Assembly (NCBI GenBank): GCA_034620365.1
Contig: JAQGEQ010000258.1
Span: forward strand, 604,374-668,373
Direction: 5' to 3'
Length of the DNA: 64,000 nt
Origin: Pegea sp. RAD2-039
Lineage: Eukaryota > Chordata > Thaliacea > Salpida > Salpidae
This document shows positions 1 through 64,000 of this stretch, piece by piece. Positions within the stretch are counted from its first letter, which is position 1, and every line of letters begins with the position of its first letter. The position numbers and the translations under genes were made by a program. The notes under the pieces were generated by a model. It saw only the letters and a program-made list of their open reading frames with translations. It was not told where the DNA came from and made no database searches.

Positions 1-132
1 CTTGTTACTCAAAAAGAATATATGACTGTTTGGTTGCTGAACAAAGATTTGTCTTCCACTTTTTACTGATTCTAATTCGCTTTGTAAAATTTGTTGCAAG
101 TGAAGACTTTGTTTCTTTTGCAAGAGATCCAT
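1..132 (-). CDS. ASDURF: ASDURF-like prefoldin subunit, 5' part (runs off window)
   Basis: The frame opens at the ATG at 132-130, with an in-frame stop just upstream (138-136), and stays open to base 1, giving 44 residues. The reading has a heptad-like leucine/glutamine helix followed by a segment reading FVQQPNSHIFFLSNK. This closely resembles the conserved RxxYRQQxNSNIFFLADR core of ASDURF, the small prefoldin-like protein made from the upstream ORF of vertebrate ASNSD1. In mammals ASDURF belongs to the prefoldin-like module of the PAQosome (R2TP chaperone). The next gene upstream on the same strand is UXT, another subunit of that module. A good splice acceptor (GTTGCTTTTTAG, ending at 203) lies about 70 bp before the ATG. 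PDRG1 or a canonical beta-prefoldin are alternatives, but the NSxIFFL signature favours ASDURF. Whether ASNSD1 follows cannot be seen. Confidence 0.75.
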   Translation of the reverse strand, partial: MDLLQKKQSLHLQQILQSELESVKSGRQIFVQQPNSHIFFLSNK

Positions 133-202
133 TAGTCAACAATTGAAGACAGAATCACAAATGGTATACCAAAAAGTTATTATAAAAATATTTATATTAT
201 AA

Positions 203-280
203 CTAAAAAGCAACAAAACATTTTCAATAATCAAAAATACATTCACACTTTTCAAGAACTAATAGAAAATAGTTTTTATT
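203..280 (-). promoter_or_regulatory. UXT poly(A) signal and ASDURF 3' splice acceptor (candidate intercistronic region)
   Basis: On the minus strand an AATAAA hexamer (280-275) follows the UXT stop by about 110 bp. About 70 bp further on comes a pyrimidine-rich acceptor ending TTTTTAG at 203. No donor separates the two genes that I can recognise. A poly(A) signal followed closely by an unpaired acceptor is the usual layout between genes of a spliced-leader operon. It could equally be the end of UXT plus a 5' UTR intron of the next gene. Confidence 0.45.
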
Positions 281-388
281 CTTAAATTATTCTAACATTT
301 AATATACTTAATCATAAAAGTGAAAAAGAACTTGTCTTTGATACAAATTATTATCATAAGTAAAATATTGAAGTTTGTTTTAATAATT

Positions 389-826
389 CTACAAACTTTG
401 TAGTTCCTTGAGACCTTCATGAACTAACCTAATGTTAGCTTTTACAGAAGAAATCTTGTCAGATATCTCATCTGATTTGATATTCAAGGATTTTACTTTT
501 TTTTCAATAAATTTTAATGCTTCAGGATAAGTAAAGTTCAGAAAAAATCCAAACCCAATAGAAACAAAAATAGTTTTTGTTTCAGGAACTATCGCTTGTA
601 CATAAAAATTACAACCAAGATCAACTTGAGCTTTTATTACATCTTCATCCTTTTTCATCAAATTTTGAATAACAGATTTTAACTGAAGATGTTCAGCCAT
701 TTCTTCATACAATTGTTCTCTTACATTTAACAAACTATTCAAATCTCTTTTCAGCCTCTCATTAACAAACTCTTCATACTTTTTTACTTTATCATTTACC
801 AAGAGAGAATTATCAGATTCTGACAT
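389..826 (-). CDS. UXT: Prefoldin-like protein UXT
   Basis: Single-exon gene of 145 aa, about the size of human UXT (157 aa). UXT is an alpha-type prefoldin that works with URI1, PDRG1, PFDN2, PFDN6 and ASDURF in the PAQosome/R2TP co-chaperone and also acts as a transcription cofactor. The sequence shows the expected plan: an N-terminal helix (RYE-like KYEEFVNERLKRDL), the signature VDLGCNFYVQAIVPET at about 68-83, the second hairpin IFVSIGFGFFLNFTYPEAL, and a C-terminal coiled coil ending in GLKELQSL. These match the family closely. An acceptor-like ACTATTTTCAG lies 26 bp before the ATG, so the 5' end is either cis-spliced in the UTR or trans-spliced. The ASDURF-like gene follows 256 bp downstream on the same strand. 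Confidence 0.95.
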   Translation of the reverse strand: MSESDNSLLVNDKVKKYEEFVNERLKRDLNSLLNVREQLYEEMAEHLQLKSVIQNLMKKDEDVIKAQVDLGCNFYVQAIVPETKTIFVSIGFGFFLNFTYPEALKFIEKKVKSLNIKSDEISDKISSVKANIRLVHEGLKELQSL

Positions 827-848
827 TTCAATAACTTAAATAAATTGT

Positions 849-866
849 ATCTGAAAATAGTTCAAG
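849..866 (-). promoter_or_regulatory. 3' splice acceptor just upstream of UXT start
   Basis: The minus strand reads TTGAACTATTTTCAG followed by the leader ATACAATTTATTTAAG and the UXT ATG. A strong acceptor this close to a start codon means the mature 5' UTR is very short. It fits either a 5' UTR intron or spliced-leader addition; no matching donor was identified upstream. Confidence 0.5.
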
Positions 867-3037
867 TTTTATTATAGACTTATTTCAAGTAAAATATTAT
901 TATAGAAATATTATAGAAATAATTTGACAATATTTAGAAAACCATTTTGTACACTTACTGTTACTTCACTATTTAAAATAGTAATCATATAATTATAAAA
1001 GTTGTTATTTAATTGATAGACTTTTTTAAGTGAAGAAAGCTGTCAAAATCATTTTTAACTTTTACTAAGCTCAGTAATCAAACACACAGCACGAAACTTG
1101 TAAAAGGAATTATACTCAATAGTTTCAGCTAGGGGGAAACTATGAACTTACTATTAAAAAGCGGTATTTTCGGTTTGTAACTAGTTAGACTAAAATTTCT
1201 GCATTCTATTCGTCCTAAGGTCTTAAAAAGAACATTGAACATAATTTCTTTATTACTCAACATTTTTGCTTATAATTTTCGATAACTTTGAAAACAGAAA
1301 TGTCTTTTACTTAAGATTGTTTTGCATCTTCTTGATAAAATTAAGTGATTAAAAAGGTCCACAAACTCCTTCAGGAAAAAAAGTTTTAGGATTACTAAAA
1401 GCTCAAGAAAAACATAGTATAAGTCCAAGTTACTAGACATTAATGAAACTTTACCATTCACGGTGGAATCTATTACTAACGATCTAGTTGTAACGGCCAC
1501 ACTCTATCAAAACAGACTTCTCTTGGCCTATATGTCAAGAAAATTACAAAGATCATAGTTATAACACCGAATAGTGAAGAAAGAGGTTGCCAACTTTTTT
1601 TGGAAGCGAAATGATTTGCTGCCACAATAAATTTTTTTATGACGCACTCAAAAAAGTGAAGAATGACAAGATTGGTTGGAGAATGAAGCCGGCAACTTTA
1701 TTTCAAACCTTGCGGTATAAAAATGAAAGACCTACTGTTGAGTTATACCGATGACAAATTTTACTATTTAAAGTATTTACGTATTGTTTTTGATTTTAAT
1801 AAATTAAAAGATCAAAAGGTGATCATATATTACATTTGCCATCATACTATAGATAACATTTTATTTTCTAAGCTATATCAATTTTAAGAAGGTTTTATGA
1901 GCTTTGATATCTCAGTTACCAATAAAAAAAATATAAATATACAAGTAGTATTATTCAGTTTAGGTGGTTTGATTTTAAGAAATTTTCTTTCTTTTTTGAA
2001 ACGCTATATTTGTTAAACATTAACTTTCAAAACCCTTTAAGTCAACATGTCTATGTGTCACATAGCTAAGCAATGTTGTTGTAATAAATTGATGTATAAT
2101 AAATAATGTTAAAGGTTTGTAAAATGGTCTATTAAGTTTTAATTTTTATTGCAAATATTAAACTTTTACCTAAGATAAGTTTAGTTTATTTTTTAGTTAC
2201 TGCAAATGTTCTTTTAGCAATAGCACTTTACTTATTTTGTATTTTAAGAAGTACTTAGTTGTCTATATTAGTGACTCTCAAAATTTTTCGAGTTGGCGTT
2301 GTCAGTACTTCTAAAAAGTCAGAATTTTCTTATAGGTAAGATATTATAAATCAACCACTTATTAGTGATCACACAGTAGTCCTTAGTACCCAATCCTTAG
2401 TGCCCAGTCCTTACTGCCCAGTCCTTAGTGCCCATCTTAATATAGTTCTGAGTTCTTGCTAAATAAAGGGTAATGATGACTTAATCAGTTTAGGGGTTTT
2501 AACAAATTAATGATAAAATTATAATCTGTTTTGTTATAATCCAGTAGAAGCAGGTAAACCTTAATTACCATCAAAATAAAGTGATATAATTCTGAAATAA
2601 GATGGTTACGTTTGTTGTTTTTAGCTAAGGACTAAGTGAATCACCTGAATGATTCTTCTACTAAATCAGATTAATTCACTTGAGGTGCTTAAAAACTTTG
2701 CTGGTATAACATACTAAATTTCCGATCACCTACTGAGGATGGGGTAGCCCTTTGATAAAAAGAGGCTCCAATAAACATAGAGATTTCTGCTTTAGATATA
2801 TTCTGTCGATGAAGTGTTTTTTAATTTCTGTCAGGAACTGATTAGGTTTAAATAATCAATAAAAAACTAAACTATTAAATATTAAAGTTGTAAATACATA
2901 ATTAACCATCTAGGTTTAGTTTACTTCAAGGACGTTTTTTTGAAAACTCCTAAATAATCTTTAAGGACTCAGAGCTAAGTTTTAGAACCACTTATGTAAG
3001 CCATAGAGTTTTTAAACAAACTGTGATTTTGTTGTAG
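867..3037. other. Intergenic region between divergent UXT and PHYH-type genes
   Basis: AT-rich non-coding sequence separating divergently transcribed genes, so it should hold both promoters. It must also contain the 5' exon of the dioxygenase gene, because the first exon I can place begins with an acceptor at 3038 and has no in-frame ATG. A 14-bp minisatellite lies at 2379-2434. Open frames here (for example 1270-1500) have no recognisable protein features. Confidence 0.5.
2379..2434. repeat. 14-bp minisatellite, four copies
   Basis: Four head-to-tail copies of a 14-bp unit, consensus GTCCTTAGTGCCCA, with one or two substitutions per copy. It is noticeably richer in G+C than the surrounding DNA. 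Function unknown. Confidence 0.85.
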
Positions 3038-5043
3038 CTTGATGATATAAGTGATTGGAGTAATATAGATTCCGATACAGGATCACTTGGTGAAAAACAT
3101 AATTGGCGAAAAGGTTTTGGTGAATTTGAATTAAACGCTTCTCAAATAAGGGACTATTTTCAGTAAGCAAATGTTATCGTTGATAATTTATTAGTTACTT
3201 ATTGTAGCTTAAAATGTGTATTATCTCAAGAAATTTTCTTGTAAGATTATAACTTCTTAAACTAACATGTAAATTTCCCTGAAATGTTTTTCTATTAGTA
3301 ATTGAGAGCATATAAAAAGTTACATAATGGGTATTGAATGTAGGGTGATGGAGGTATTCTGAAAACCTCAACGGTAGAAAGGTCTTTAATAGTTTTAGTA
3401 TAAAATGAAAGAATATCCAAACAAAAGTACTCTTCTTCATAACATTTTTGACACACAGTTTTTACTAACAGAAATGGATTTTTAGGGCCAATTAGAGTTT
3501 TGTCCGAAGAAAGTTGTTTAAAACTGCTTGAAGATTATGAACTAATTATTGTAAGTAGTCTAGTTATTAAAGAAATGTATATACTTATTCTTGAGTAAAT
3601 GTAATTAATTAATTAAAATAGAAAACACTCAAAAGTGGAATAAATTTAGTTAAGAAAATAAGTTTTACGATATACGGTTAATAAAAAGTTGAAGAAAAGT
3701 AATAATTAAATAATTATATCTAACATTATATCTTAAATATAGGATAGTGGTAAAAATGAATTATATTATGAATACCACAAAAACCAAACTGGTGATACAA
3801 ATAATGTCCTGTTTCATGCACTTGGACATTGGAGAATAACTAGACGATTTCATGATTTAATTTTTCAACCATCAATTACAGTTTGTAAACTTGAAAAACT
3901 TAATAGTTGCTTACAAAATATAGTTTTAAGTAATAAAATATTTAAATGGAAATTCTTTTGATTGTTTCTTTCTGCTGATGAAAAAACATGTCATATGCAA
4001 ATGTATAAACACTAGTAATTAATAAAAGGTGAAATAAATCCATATTTCTGATTTATTCAAAAAGTCAAACTTTACTTTCCAAAACTTTATAGTCAAACTT
4101 ATTAATGACGAAATCACTATTTTGTATGGATTAGATACCAAGCTCTCAAATAATCAAACCAACAAGCGAAAACAAAGTTTCAGTTCGTTTATGGCACGAC
4201 CAATTATTTGCAAAACCTGCTCATTATGGCGGATGCGTAGCTTGGCACCAGGATTTCAGCTACTGGACAAGAACATCTCCAATGGAACATTTAACGGTTT
4301 TTATTACACATTGAAGCTAACTTTAAAAACCATTTCGAATAAATTTCATACTACTTGTCATTATGATTTTAATAGATGACTTTAAAATGGTATTTTTTTT
4401 CTCGATTACAAGATGTTGCTCTTGAAACAAACTATCGAAAATGGATGCATCCACTACATCCCCGGCTCGCATAAATGGACCAGACAAGGAAAGCCTCTTC
4501 CAGTGACAGACTTTAATTTTAAAGATATGGAATCTATAAAGGTTTTGCAAAAAAATGCTGAATGTATAATTTGAAAAAGTCACTTTTTTGAACTAACTTT
4601 AGAAAAGTTATTTTGTGAAATTATTTTAAGTTTGAATTCACCCAGTTTTAAACATTTAAATTTTGAAAGAAAATCTTAACTGATGAAGAGTTGAAAGAGT
4701 TTCGACCTGTAGCTTGTCAACTAAAACCAGGAGAAGCTGTTTTTCATCATCCACTAGCAGTACATGGATCGTACCCTAACAGGTTTTTATAAAAAGTCTT
4801 GATAACATTTTTATCATCAAAACTAATCTTTTAAAGTTGAGTCAGATTTATTTCAGTAAATTGTTTGTTTAAAGGTCAAACAAACCTCGTCGAGCTGCTG
4901 TAGTAAACTACATCGCAGATGGGGTCACGTCAAACACAAATGAGTTGCTATTAGACAACACAGAAATAATCTATCAAGGCCAGAAGCTACAAGGCAAGTT
5001 TTTTCCTAAAGTGTTTGATATTTCCTGGGTATCAAAGCACTGA
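3038..5043 (+). CDS. Phytanoyl-CoA dioxygenase (PhyH) family protein, 5' end not resolved
   Basis: Fe(II)/2-oxoglutarate-dependent oxygenase of the PhyH/PHYHD group. Exons read as 3038-3162, 3472-3550, 3743-3880, 4093-4123 (31-nt microexon), 4184-4296, 4413-4541, 4670-4782 and 4875-5043, totalling 897 nt (298 aa plus stop) and in phase throughout. Metal ligands are visible as HxD in AWHQDFSYW (exon 5) and the distal histidine in [11 protein letters not shown] (exon 7). The Arg expected to bind 2-oxoglutarate follows in [10 protein letters not shown]. Other family motifs are [42 protein letters not shown] and VNYIADG. Exon 3 uses a GTTTGT donor. The exon 5/6 junction is the weak point because neighbouring frames also show family-like residues. 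At least one upstream exon with the start codon is missing. The substrate cannot be predicted. An AATAAA lies at 5082. Confidence 0.9.
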
Positions 5044-6674: not shown

Positions 6675-9349
6675 TTAAATGTTGTCTAAACTGCAAAAGT
6701 TTGAAGAAAATATTTTTAAATCTTTAATTAAGAGTTGAAATCACCTCAAAAGTTAAAAAAAGTTTATTTAAAAAAATCCTACCTAGCACTTGATGGTCTA
6801 TGAAATCGGTTACTTCTGGCAGAAGAAGGTCTGACTGGTCCATTACTTCTAGCAGAAATAGACAGACTTCTACCAGTTGCTGATAGAGCATCATCACCTG
6901 CATCACCTGATTCATTCTTACTTCGAGAGCTCATCAGTGAAGTGAAGTCACTCAGGCGTGCAAGACGAACGATTCTAGGCGAAGCAGCTGATAAAAGAAG
7001 ACTTAGATAATAGACAAAATTCTAATTAAAATAAAGAATTGGTTTAGAAAGTTTTTATCCAGTTATATGAGAAACATTCAAAGGAAATGTAAAAAGGAAA
7101 AATAACGATTAACAGAAAAATGAAACAATTACATTGATGTTTGTTTTGTAGAAACTTATGATGAAATAATTTGGATTTATTTAGCAACTGAAACACGAAA
7201 TACCTCTTTCAGAACTACGAGATGATCTGGGAGTGGTTAGAGGAGTGTTTGTAGCACTTGCTATCATCTTGTAAGCTTGTTTTGATTGATTTGCTAAACG
7301 AAGAGCGTTTGCTACAGTTTCAGTATGGACCACTCCAGTAAATTCCGTAGCTAAAACAAATTGATACTAACTTAAAGACCTTAAATTAACAGTTTAAAAA
7401 ATAATAAGCTTCTACATATACACGTTAAACCATTCAAAACATTACTTACAACTAATTGAAAGTTTAAAGAGTATAGAATATAACATATTACTGAAAAATA
7501 GCGAGCATAACGTACAAAATATTCTTTAATCTTTCTACTAATGTAAAAAATTTATCAATGTAAAGCTGAATAAATATTTTATGAAATAGAGAAAAAAAGA
7601 TTGCCAGCGTAACTAAAAGAGGTTCATTTGAAATTAGAACATAGCTAACTCTATAAACAAATATAAAATACATATTCTACTTATATATTATTTATTTAAG
7701 AGTTTAAACTAGTAAATAATCATTTACTTTTGACAATTTCTATGTTTACTAGCTATAAGAATTTTAAAATTTAATAATTGTACAAGTTTACAATATGCTA
7801 GTTCTAAACTGGTCAACTTATTATCATTTCTCATTATATCAATTTCTTAAGTAGTCTATAAACCAAACTTAGCATAAGTGACTTAAATAATTAAACTCTA
7901 AAAAACATAATTTAAATTTTATATTTAAATGATATACACCAATAAGTAATAAACTATTTAAAGTTAGATTAATCAAAACAGTTAATTTCTTAACCAGTAT
8001 TCCAAAAAAATATGACTGGTCAAATTAAAAACCATAAATAAAATATTTCTTATTTGTATGTATCAGACAATTATCTGAAGCATAAAATTAACAACAACAA
8101 TATCTGACACAAACAAGTTTAACTTACAATCACAAACTGGTACATGGTCTGTTTTTGACACAGTTGTTTCAAGATTTGATCCTACTCTTGAACGTATGAC
8201 AGGGATCATATTCAAATTGTCTGAGTCTAAATTGTTTGCAGCTTCTTCGTTTCTTTTTGAACTTTTATCATTTTTTAAAGTTTCTATGTTCTTGTAAAAA
8301 AACACTAATTGATTGTCGAGTATATAAATGTTGTAATTATTCTACCTTGACGTTTTTTTCATATGATTTTTGGTTTGTAAGAAGAAAAGATGATTTTCTA
8401 GAAGCTGTTGGTCTATTTCTATCCAATTTATCACTTGTCAAATAATTAGGATTATTCTTTTCTTTTAAACATCGATGCAACTTTATCTGCTTGTACGAGT
8501 CTTGTCTATTGTAAAATAATTGTTTTAACGACGACGACAGATATAGTAAAAACTAAACAACATACACAGAATTTCGTTGAAATATATTTTATGTTAAAGA
8601 ATAGAAACATTTTGAAGTCTCAAAATTAAATCATGCCTTTCGAAATCAAACAACAATTAATCTGCAATCAAATGACTTTTCCTGACCTGGTTTTCCGCAT
8701 TTGACTTAATGATTGAGATGTAGTTTTTGGGGATGACTCAACATTTCCTTCAGACTCATCTAAAAATCACAATTAAAATCAACAGATATCTAGTTAGCTA
8801 TCTTTAATTTTCTAATAAGCTAAACAATCTATTTAACAAAATCTTTAATTAATTTAGTTATGATATAATATATATTTCATTTTGGGTGATAAAAAGTATT
8901 TAAATTTAAAAAGTGAGCAGACTTATCAAAAGAGATGAATTTATCATCATTCTGATTTATTGAAAAGTTGAAATTTATAAAACTTATCAAAATGTCAAAA
9001 AAGCTAGAATAATTATCACAACAATTTAACAGCAACTTATAATTATTTAGTGGTTTAGGAAAGATTAGATTAATTAAAATTATCAAAACTTACTTTTGAG
9101 GTTATATGATGTCCATAGTAATGGGGCCCCTTTTGATGTTGGACCTATAGTCCACGGTGGATCCCAATCTGCATCTTGACTTTGACGTTTAGTTTCTACT
9201 TGCTGGAGGAACCTAGTTGGTGAACCAAACAATGTTTCATCTACATGAGATTTTGTTGCTTTTGTTCGATAAGAAAAGTTAGTTTTCTTAGGTGTAACAG
9301 AATGAACTTTTTTTCCAACTAAGCCTATTTTCCCATTACTTGTATACAT
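6675..9349 (-). CDS. RITA1: RITA1 homologue (RBPJ-interacting and tubulin-associated protein)
   Basis: Seven exons on the minus strand: 9349-9094, 8759-8687, 8505-8346, 8290-8128, 7350-7204, 6987-6783 and 6690-6675. They total 1020 nt, giving 339 aa plus stop, with every junction in phase; the last exon adds only five residues. Vertebrate RITA1 binds RBPJ and tubulin and exports RBPJ from the nucleus, damping Notch output. Exon 1 carries the family signature: YRTKATKSHVDETLFGSP (about 27-44), DWDPPW (61-66), and PLLWTSY (76-82), which corresponds to the ALLWTPP RBPJ-docking segment of human RITA1. The Pro after LLWT is replaced by Ser. The rest is Ser/Arg-rich and disordered, ending in repeated SxSARSN and RPSS motifs that suit microtubule binding. 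An acceptor (TTTTTATTCAG) lies about 45 bp before the ATG, and BBIP1 sits directly upstream. Identity rests on the N-terminal block. Confidence 0.82.
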
Positions 9350-9394
9350 TTTATTAAAGCAGAAAAACTGTATGAAGTAACCACAAATTTAACA

Positions 9395-9412
9395 CTGAAT
9401 AAAAAGATAAGC
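9395..9412 (-). promoter_or_regulatory. 3' splice acceptor between BBIP1 and RITA1
   Basis: The minus strand reads CTTATCTTTTTATTCAG, ending about 45 bp before the RITA1 start and about 80 bp after the BBIP1 stop codon. The gap is too short for an ordinary promoter plus terminator. An unpaired acceptor in it is what a spliced-leader operon would show. Confidence 0.5.
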
Positions 9413-9477
9413 ATCAACAACTTATCATTAACACATTTTAAAATTATTAATTTAGATTTTTAATTAAAAAATTACAA

Positions 9478-9672
9478 CTAATTGTCTTGGTCTTCTTCAG
9501 CTTTCATAGCTTCTTGAGCTTTTTTTTGAATTTTTTCTAGCTTTTCAAGAGTGATTGACTTTAATGGCATAATTTTAGGTTTACACAAAACCAAAGATGG
9601 CTTGTCTTCTCGATAAAGTTCCCCATTTTTAGGTAACACTTCTTTAAACTGTTTTGAACCCACTTCAGACAT
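9478..9672 (-). CDS. BBIP1: BBSome-interacting protein 1
   Basis: Intronless 64-aa protein. BBIP1 (BBIP10/BBS18) is the smallest BBSome subunit, needed for assembly of the complex that moves membrane cargo in cilia; it also affects cytoplasmic microtubule stability. The sequence matches the conserved core: FKEVLPKNGELY, then LVLCKPKIMPLKSITLEKLEK and the helical KKAQEAMKAEEDQ tail. Human BBIP1 shows the same order ([30 protein letters not shown], QAAQN). The ATG follows a short leader after possible acceptor AGs. RITA1 begins 128 bp downstream on the same strand. Length and motif order leave little doubt. Confidence 0.92.
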   Translation of the reverse strand: MSEVGSKQFKEVLPKNGELYREDKPSLVLCKPKIMPLKSITLEKLEKIQKKAQEAMKAEEDQDN

Positions 9673-10739
9673 TTTATAGTGAATGTAATTCTATCGTTTT
9701 ATCAACTTTCAAGAAAATCTTTTTAATAAATTATTATTTTTTTGTCTATCCAGTTTCTATTAGAATTTTAAAATTGACATATTTATTAACAAATAATTAG
9801 TAATCAAACAGATAAAATATTAAAGAATTATTTTAGTTTTCTATAAACAAAATAAACATAAATTGAAACTATTACAACAATTTCTGGTAAACATTAAAAT
9901 TGTTTCATTTATAGAATAACAAAATTAAAAAAAAAAGATAAAAAACTTTCAACTCAACAGTGCCTTAAAAATTACATAAATTAAAAAAATAAAATCTAAT
10001 AGTTGTAGATGACAGAAATTTTCGTATGACAAATTTGCAAGGTAGTTGATATTAAAGAAAAAAACTCAAAAATATACTTAGATTAATAGGCTAAATAGGA
10101 AAGTCAAAATACAAAAGAAGAAAATTGCTGCTAAGGCTTAGTTATAAAATGAGAACTTTTTGCTACACTTAATATTTTATCTATGTAAAACTGTAATTTC
10201 TGAAGCAAAAATGTTTAATTCTGTTAATTGTAAACATTCCAGCATTTATCGTTGCTGGGTTAATAGACCAAAAAAGTCTAACGACAATTTTTCAAACAGA
10301 TGCTGAATTTGCAATGGTAAATCATTCTTATATCGATATTACATATATGACTTACCTATATTAAAAATTAAAAAAATCTCAACAAATGACTTAAATATTA
10401 AAGTGTTTTCATATTTGTTTAGATTAACCAATTTTAATCTGAAAGTGTTTATCTGAGAAATGCTTATATTTTAATTTTTAAGATTTAATTATACTAATTA
10501 TTTAATTACAAAACATAAAATATTACGACTAGTAAATTAAAGGTTCATATAAAAATTAAGAGCTCCTAAAGTGATAAATCTTTTGGTAAGCTTTGTTATA
10601 AATATATCAAAAGTAAAGTTAAATCAGTCAAACTTTTGAACCAGTTCTGCAAATGTCATTTATGATTTGCTCTTAACAATGTTTATAAAGCTTTCTAATT
10701 TTTTGCTTGATTGTACTTTCTAAAATAAATTATTCTTAG

Positions 10740-62085: not shown

Positions 62086-62277
62086 TATTATTCGAGTCTA
62101 ACTTGTTCATTTTATCTAATATTATTATTTATTATTAAAATAAACATGAAAAAACAGCAAAATTTTACTAAAAATAAAAAATACAAGAAATAAATTATTA
62201 AAAACAAACTTCATGAGAGAATTTTCAGAAGTACATGAAGTATCTATAAATCAAGAAAGTATTTTGCAGATCACGAG

Positions 62278-64000
62278 ATGAAAACTACTATACTTAGTTT
62301 TCTAATACAATGTTTACTTTTACTAACTACAAACAATGGAAAAGCAGAAAAAAGCAACCATACAGAATTTGAAAGTAGAAACACAATAGAAAACAGAATA
62401 AACATATTATCAACAATATATCCAACAGAAACAACTCTCAAATCAAATATGATTGAAACAACAATCAAAACAAGTGAAACAACCGTTCCAATAAGTACAA
62501 CAAGAGTAGAAACAACAGTTGATGCTACTACAGCAAGCACTCTAGAATCTACAATTGATTTGATAACAACAGAACAAACTACAAGTGATTCTTCTACATC
62601 TGTTCCAATAAGTACAACAAGAGTAGAAACAACATTTGATGCTACTACAGCAAGCACTCTAGAATCTACAAGTGATTTGATAACAACAGAACAAACTACA
62701 AGTGATTCTTCTACAACTGTTCCAATAAGTACAACAAGAGTAGAAACAACAGTTGATGCTACTACAGCAAGCACTCTAGAATCTACAAGTGATTTGATAA
62801 CAACAGAAGAAACTACAAGTGATTCTTCTACAACTGTTCCAATAAGTACAACAAGAGTAGAAACAACAGTTGATGCTACTACAGCAAGCACTCTAGAATC
62901 TACAAGTGATTTGATAACAACAGAACAAACTACAAGTGATTCTTCTACAACTGTTCCAATAAGTACAACAAGAGTAGAAACAACAGTTGATGCTACTACA
63001 GCAAGCACTCTAGAATCTACAAGTGATTTGATAACAACAGAACAAACTACAAGTGATTCTTCTACAACTGTTCCAATAAGTACAACAAGAGTAGAAACAA
63101 CAGTTGATGCTACTACAGCAAGCACTCTAGAATCTACAAGTGATTTGATAACAACAGAACAAACTACAAGTGATTCTTCTACAACTGTTCCAATAAGTAC
63201 AACAAGAGTAGAAACAACAGTTGATGCTACTACAGCAAGCACTTTAGAATCTACAAGTGATTTGATAACAACAGAACAAACTACAAGTGATTCTTCTACA
63301 ACTGTTCCAATAAGTACAACAAGAGTAGAAACAACAGTTGATGCTACTACAGCAAGCACTCTAGAATCTACAAGTGATTTGATAACAACAGAACAAACTA
63401 CAAGTGATTCTTCTACAACTGTTCCAATAAGTACAACAAGAGTAGAAACAACAGTTGATACTACTACAGCAAGCACTCTAGAATCTACAAGTGATTTGAT
63501 AACAACAGAACAAACTACAAGTGATTCTTCTACAACTGTTCCAATAAGTACAACAAGAGTAGAAACAACAGTTGATACTACTACAGCAAGCACTCTAGAA
63601 TCTACAAGTGATTTGATAACAACAGAACAAACTACAAGTGATTCTTCTACAACTGTTCCAATAAGTACAACAAAAGTAAAAACAACAGTTGATGCTACTA
63701 CAGCAAGCACTCTAGAATCTACAAGTTATTTGATAACAACAGAACAAACTACAAGTGATTCTTCTACAACTGTTCCAATAAGTACAACAAGAGTAGAAAC
63801 AACAGTTGATGCTACTACAGCAAGCACTCTAGAATCTATAAGTGATTTGATAACAACAGAACAAACTACAAGTGATTCTTCTACAACTGTTCCAATAAGT
63901 ACAGCAAGAGTAGAAACAACAGTTGATGCTACTACAGCAAGCACTCTAGAATCTACAAGTGATTTGATAACAACAGAACAAACTACAAGTGATTCTTCTA
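62278..64000 (+). CDS. Secreted mucin-like Thr/Ser-rich repeat protein (3' end beyond window)
   Basis: Open from the ATG at 62278 to the window end (574 codons) with no intron. It starts with a signal peptide (MKTTILSFLIQCLLLLTTNN), then about 45 residues rich in Asn/Thr with an early NHT glycosylation site. From residue 70 it consists of 39-residue repeats containing VPISTTRVETTVDATTASTL and ESTSDLITTEQTTSDSSTT: 12 complete copies and part of a 13th. Thr and Ser make up about half of each unit and proline is spaced once per unit, as in O-glycosylated mucin or cuticle/glycocalyx proteins. The repeats differ by only a few bases, so they are recently expanded or homogenised. The antisense strand is also open through the array, but only the sense frame has a signal peptide. 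A C-terminal anchor or domain, if any, is outside the window. Confidence 0.88.
   Translation, partial: MKTTILSFLIQCLLLLTTNNGKAEKSNHTEFESRNTIENRINILSTIYPTETTLKSNMIETTIKTSETTVPISTTRVETTVDATTASTLESTIDLITTEQTTSDSSTSVPISTTRVETTFDATTASTLESTSDLITTEQTTSDSSTTVPISTTRVETTVDATTASTLESTSDLITTEETTSDSSTTVPISTTRVETTVDATTASTLESTSDLITTEQTTSDSSTTVPISTTRVETTVDATTASTLESTSDLITTEQTTSDSSTTVPISTTRVETTVDATTASTLESTSDLITTEQTTSDSSTTVPISTTRVETTVDATTASTLESTSDLITTEQTTSDSSTTVPISTTRVETTVDATTASTLESTSDLITTEQTTSDSSTTVPISTTRVETTVDTTTASTLESTSDLITTEQTTSDSSTTVPISTTRVETTVDTTTASTLESTSDLITTEQTTSDSSTTVPISTTKVKTTVDATTASTLESTSYLITTEQTTSDSSTTVPISTTRVETTVDATTASTLESISDLITTEQTTSDSSTTVPISTARVETTVDATTASTLESTSDLITTEQTTSDSS
62485..64000 (+). repeat. 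117-bp coding tandem repeat, about 13 copies
   Basis: Units begin with GTTCCAATAAGTACAACA at 62485 and every 117 bp after that (62602, 62719, 62836 and so on to 63889). Length is constant in all copies seen. Substitutions are rare, and some are shared by neighbouring copies (GATACT for GATGCT in the units starting 63421 and 63538), as expected from unequal crossing-over or gene conversion. Confidence 0.97.

Follow-up and report, generated by a model that had tools for sequence, protein, structure and literature searches.

A putative UXT-ASDURF-HLCS operon in a tunicate genome that contains the Ciona spliced leader

Three genes packed on one strand of a tunicate contig, those for the prefoldin-like subunits UXT and ASDURF followed by that for holocarboxylase synthetase (HLCS), probably constitute one operon resolved by spliced-leader trans-splicing, a reading to which we assign a probability of about 0.68. 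Transcription would start upstream of UXT and continue through ASDURF and HLCS, and the precursor would be cut where 3′-end formation at AATAAA is followed, at the next acceptor, by the coupled addition of a spliced leader. The expected products are separate capped mRNAs for UXT and ASDURF, and for HLCS as well unless it shares one mRNA with ASDURF. A single precursor probably carries UXT and ASDURF as distinct cistrons; HLCS would then be the third of them, or else the main ORF of an mRNA that has ASDURF as its uORF. In what follows, the window is the whole stretch of DNA that was analysed, 64 kb (64,000 nucleotides) in length; on the same contig, C34, ASDURF runs past its left edge and HLCS lies beyond that edge.

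UXT and ASDURF

UXT occupies 389..826 on the minus strand of the window as a complete single-exon coding sequence of 145 aa plus stop, and matches the Pfam Prefoldin profile (PF02996) at 57.1 bits (E 2.3e-15). Alignment to human sequences gives local scores of 321 for UXT (59 of 134 aligned residues identical) and 87 for PFDN5 (24 of 131 identical), the maxima among 500 shuffles each being 52 and 53. Judged by these alignments it is an alpha-type prefoldin nearer to UXT than to PFDN5, the comparison having taken in these two human sequences. No retrocopy of the UXT-ASDURF stretch was seen, window positions 1-900 having a single match in the genome.

ASDURF begins 256 nt beyond the UXT stop, its ATG and the first 44 of its 70 codons lying at 1..132 on the minus strand and the remainder left of the window at C34:604293-604373 (L003:920-1000), also on the minus strand. 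Taken alone, the 44-codon piece scores 22.6 bits against Pfam PF21975 (ASNSD1-SEP), under the cut-off of 27, and a PDB sequence search with it gave no match. Once followed leftward along the contig, the ORF comes to 70 aa with a TAA stop and scores 37.6 bits (E 2.4e-9), above that cut-off, with residues 10-62 aligned on profile positions 31-83 of 96. Alignment to human ASDURF scores 117 with 25 identities in 58 columns (shuffles at most 60); in the tunicate protein the N-terminal extension of the human one is largely missing, as is part of the C-terminus. An AlphaFold2 single-sequence model, too poor to compare with the beta-type prefoldin fold of two long helices and a connecting hairpin (mean pLDDT 65.6, pTM 0.33), has helices at 3-24, 36-50 and 52-64 and no strands.

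In a whole-genome profile search of the 105.7 Mb assembly, this locus is the sole PF21975 match above cut-off. The other match, on C3, was dismissed as due to chance: it scores 17.1 bits with an E of 0.46, has an internal stop and on reading is unlike ASDURF.

The first-pass annotation had taken the partial frame at 1-132 for ASDURF, adjacent to UXT on the same strand and 256 bp from it. The identification is confirmed by the complete ORF, and the adjacency by the two profile matches and their coordinates.

HLCS downstream of ASDURF

From the ASDURF stop to the next ATG, at C34:604267 and again on the minus strand, is one uninterrupted stretch of 25 nt, giving the minus-strand order UXT, 256 nt, ASDURF, 25 nt, HLCS. 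The HLCS model is a predicted one, with exon borders at GT-AG sites read from the sequence; its ten exons join in frame and encode 595 aa. The biotin/lipoate ligase domain profile PF03099 matches the joined model at 72.9 bits (cut-off 21), over profile positions 5-133 of 133, and one exon alone at 27.4 bits, and on its predicted sequence the gene is identified as holocarboxylase synthetase, a biotin-protein ligase. Two other profiles gave sub-threshold scores on single exons, BPL_N at 12.8 bits (cut-off 24.2) and BPL_C at 16.8 (cut-off 21), and neither was among the matches of the joined model at a threshold of E 0.01; DUF4159 on an HLCS exon, at 19.2 bits, is above the BPL_N score and under its own cut-off.

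It had been proposed that leftward extension of the contig would reveal either a prefoldin of about 90 aa or continuation towards ASNSD1. The frame does end, at 70 codons, and what follows is HLCS and not ASNSD1. Since ASDURF ends at 70 aa with HLCS starting 25 nt further on, it may be the middle one of three cistrons or an HLCS uORF, and not simply a cistron of its own, as the first-pass annotation had it; the part of that proposal that stands is the detachment from ASNSD1, which is on contig C10.

The latter reading is possible and short of probable. It takes ASDURF as a translated uORF on a dicistronic, spliced-leader-bearing HLCS mRNA, with HLCS being reached by reinitiation or leaky scanning, and it is compatible with an operon that includes UXT. 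The shortness of the uninterrupted 25 nt speaks for it, as does the quality of the intervening acceptor, a poor one with 4 of 12 pyrimidines, whose AG ends at window position -85, 20 nt short of the HLCS start codon. The poorness of this acceptor also weighs against the operon reading. There is also precedent in the same microprotein, the ASDURF-ASNSD1 transcript being named among characterised human bicistronic transcripts in PMC13303939. What tells against it is that an AATAAA followed by that AG, a stretch of 26 nt with both motifs counted in, is located exactly at the ASDURF-HLCS junction, as fits an abutting operon junction of the Ciona type. The fuller claim, that ASDURF is an HLCS uORF and that the same microprotein is carried on 5′ leaders of unrelated enzyme-family genes, ASNSD1 in vertebrates and HLCS here, is more tentative and on balance somewhat unlikely.

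Signals between and before the genes

In the gap between UXT and ASDURF, an AATAAA starting at 280 is followed by the acceptor ATTTTCTATTAG, with 9 of 12 pyrimidines and its AG ending at 259 (together 259..280, minus strand). The two are candidates for, and may be used as, the poly(A) signal of UXT and, directly behind it, the trans-splice acceptor of ASDURF. A stronger acceptor, GTTTTGTTGCTTTTTAG, is at 203..219 on the minus strand, with 10 of 12 pyrimidines; its AG ends at 203, and from there to the ASDURF ATG it is 70 nt. This site is a candidate alternative trans-splice acceptor for ASDURF, and 3.3% of the minus-strand YAGs in the window score equally high. Before UXT, an AATAAA starting at 873 precedes the acceptor CTATTTTCAG, whose AG ends at 851 (together 851..873, minus strand), and this acceptor, 24 nt before the UXT ATG, is a candidate for the site at which UXT would receive a spliced leader.

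The AATAAA-to-acceptor unit thus has a length of 23 nt before UXT and 22 nt before ASDURF. The 64 kb window has 15 such units on its minus strand, and given that number, the occurrence of one at each of the two starts, which were the starts inspected first, is suggestive. The base composition of the window is about 27% G+C, and AATAAA alone is frequent, at 2.6-3.4 per kb; the commonness of AATAAA and acceptor-type signals in AT-rich DNA counts against the operon reading. Also counted against it is the presence of the AATAAA-acceptor pair before UXT, upstream of which no gene was recognised among the frames examined, the Pfam search having left out the frames of 840-4000. Scans of the window for tRNAs and Rfam families found nothing.

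The poly(A) signal and the splice acceptor that had been noted earlier in the gap are present, at 280 and at 259 and 203 respectively. That the acceptor is unpaired, also noted earlier, is likely and not certain, seven donor-like GTR sites being found in the gap, for example at 307, where GTATAT follows TAA. These sites, and the capacity of AT-rich sequence to yield such signals by chance, favour a reading in which UXT and its neighbours are independent, with a promoter for ASDURF and HLCS inside the 256-nt gap and the acceptor either belonging to a 5′UTR intron or unused. Tight packing of genes, being typical of compact genomes, is in keeping with it. However, a gap of 256 nt leaves small space for a promoter, a spliced leader is evident across the genome (below), and the layout is of the tunicate operon type going by the account in PMC2760879, and we consider independence quite improbable.

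That account of Ciona gives 1,310 candidate operons with 2,909 genes, about one-fifth of genes being in operons, and describes same-strand genes less than 100 bp apart and usually abutting, with the 5′-most gene single-exon in 60% of operons (PMC2760879). The distance between the UXT and ASDURF transcripts would be 0-56 nt if their predicted ends are right, as against 256 nt from frame to frame, and so comes under 100 bp only if the 3′ end and the acceptor have been placed correctly. Because spliced-leader operons are ordinary in tunicates, an operon would explain the lone acceptor between UXT and ASDURF.

Elsewhere in the window, the minus strand at 9083-9690 has a further pair of neighbours. 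BBIP1 is a single-exon gene with a BBIP10 match of 93.8 bits, its ATG at 9672 and its stop at 9478. A RITA1-like frame (PF17066, 33 bits, cut-off 29) has its ATG 128 nt after BBIP1, with the acceptor-like CTTATCTTTTTATTCAG between, and the two make a second candidate operon on the evidence of spacing and signals. Visual, unscored inspection of the starts of another five genes suggested a close upstream acceptor in four, BBIP1 being less clear. The plus strand at 62239-64000 encodes a protein rich in Thr and Ser that looks secreted; it contains a tandem repeat (TTVDATTASTLESTSDLITTEQTTSDSSTTVPISTTRVE), near-perfect in its copies, which continues past the contig end.

The spliced leader in the genome

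The Ciona spliced leader is, in PMC7986045, a defined sequence 16 nt in length that derives from a highly repeated gene family. That exact 16-nt sequence, ATTCTATTTGAATAAG, followed by a splice donor, occurs in the present genome (105.7 Mb in 387 contigs searched) in a tandem array. At least 33 exact copies of leader plus GT are found at C4:1135044-1142219, spaced by about 199 bp or a multiple of it, and all ten leader copies in the three overlapping array loci examined continue with GTAAGT. Allowing up to two mismatches, leader plus GT occurs at 315 forward and 270 reverse sites; the reversed pattern has 37 and 40. On this leader match the animal is most likely a tunicate; flatworm, louse, mite and other small AT-rich genomes, entertained on size and base content, were set aside once the match was seen. 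At seven further loci (L025-L031) the leader is without the GTAAGT donor, and of the 585 leader-like sites a large number are copies of that type, scattered through the genome and not leader genes. No Ciona Sm motif was recognised after the donor in the 199-bp repeat unit, as read by eye in L033 and the C4 array.

When the leader without the donor requirement was searched for together with the 18 bases after it, the last of them not G, so that the main array is left out, there were 222 exact copies, the control giving 0. Among 100 of the 222 copies listed, 70 fall under three recurrent tails, one has the donor and 29 are other. In one place, C22:21505, leader directly abuts leader, and C18:114120 and C1:936439 are further examples of leader copies. 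From their sequences, the dispersed copies are possibly footprints of retroposed trans-spliced (retroelement) transcripts, generated in successive rounds. The recurrent tails and the leader-on-leader case would then be indirect evidence that the leader is really used. For the bdelloid spliced leader, a genome search with up to two mismatches had 0 matches, and a rotifer origin was rejected; no leader gene was recognised on reading the 5S rDNA spacer.

As to rDNA generally, the fuller 18S copy is at L018 (C27:4050-6100). A second kind, at L017 (C1:6130050-6132100), is 5′-truncated, divergent and joined to AT-rich satellite near a contig end; at the probe, C125 and C278 resemble this C1 type. 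A COX1 search of the assembly had no match at E 0.001.

ASNSD1 and the prefoldin family

Five exon matches to the asparagine synthase family are present in the genome, four on C4 and one on C10. The C4 gene we take, from its sequence, to be ASNS. The C10 gene has the first exon MCGIYCYILK and long exons with Asn_synthase scores of 24.9 and 24.7 bits (cut-off 21), and is presumably ASNSD1 by its likeness to the human protein. No ASDURF match was found on C10 in the whole-genome PF21975 search, and the arrangement in which an ASDURF frame precedes ASNSD1 is absent here. With ASNSD1 on a separate contig and no other ASDURF above cut-off, ASDURF is uncoupled from ASNSD1 in this genome; the two contigs, C34 (668 kb) and C10 (739 kb), are not chromosomes and distant linkage is possible.

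A shared transcription unit might keep two prefoldin-like subunits in step, making the proximity of UXT and ASDURF functional, and this would be compatible with the operon; we regard it as rather unlikely. The remaining prefoldin-family genes that were found are on contigs C236, C15, C10, C121 and C8 and not on C34, which tells against it. HLCS has, to our knowledge, no link to the PAQosome or prefoldin-like complex, and its place in the cluster tells against it too. In its favour, UXT and ASDURF are, with URI1 and PDRG1, subunits of one human prefoldin-like complex (PMC7370476 and PMC11009110), a complex also described in Arabidopsis (PMC10893143), and co-expression of the two could have selected value. 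However, where about a fifth of genes are in operons, as given for Ciona in the text of PMC2760879 cited above, chance pairs occur, and that UXT and ASDURF are neighbours in a tunicate operon says little about whether they are functionally paired.

Relation to known systems and implications

The tunicate spliced-leader operon is a known kind of gene cluster, of which UXT-ASDURF-HLCS is likely, by its sequence features, a further case. Tight same-strand genes, a single-exon first gene and an intergenic acceptor-like site are shared with the Ciona operons of PMC2760879, and the 16-nt leader is identical. The UXT-ASDURF coding gap, in contrast, is longish. The likeness to the mammalian ASDURF-ASNSD1 transcript is that an ASDURF ORF stands shortly upstream of an enzyme-family ORF on the same strand; the differences are that the downstream gene is HLCS, that UXT is upstream and that ASNSD1 is on another contig. 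ASDURF is also free of ASNSD1 in Arabidopsis, where it has its own locus identifier, AT1G49245 (PMC10893143), whereas here it is packed between two genes. No report of UXT-ASDURF linkage was found in titles and abstract starts of the open full-text literature, subscription papers and supplementary operon tables being outside that search.

Should the uORF reading be correct, short 5′ cistrons are perhaps re-paired freely as operon-like units form and dissolve, and UXT next door would be either left over from an earlier arrangement or kept there by selection. A true separation of ASDURF from ASNSD1 here, together with linkage to UXT, would mean that even among chordates the uORF arrangement of mammals is not general, and amphioxus, echinoderms and further tunicates would allow its origin to be dated; from the one tunicate genome examined, the vertebrate ASDURF-ASNSD1 arrangement may be either younger or lost here. 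For ASDURF itself, the value of the locus is that a genome of the vertebrate sister group has the gene apart from ASNSD1, with UXT and HLCS as its neighbours. Nature thereby provides an instance in which a likely single transcription unit encodes two subunits of the same chaperone complex.
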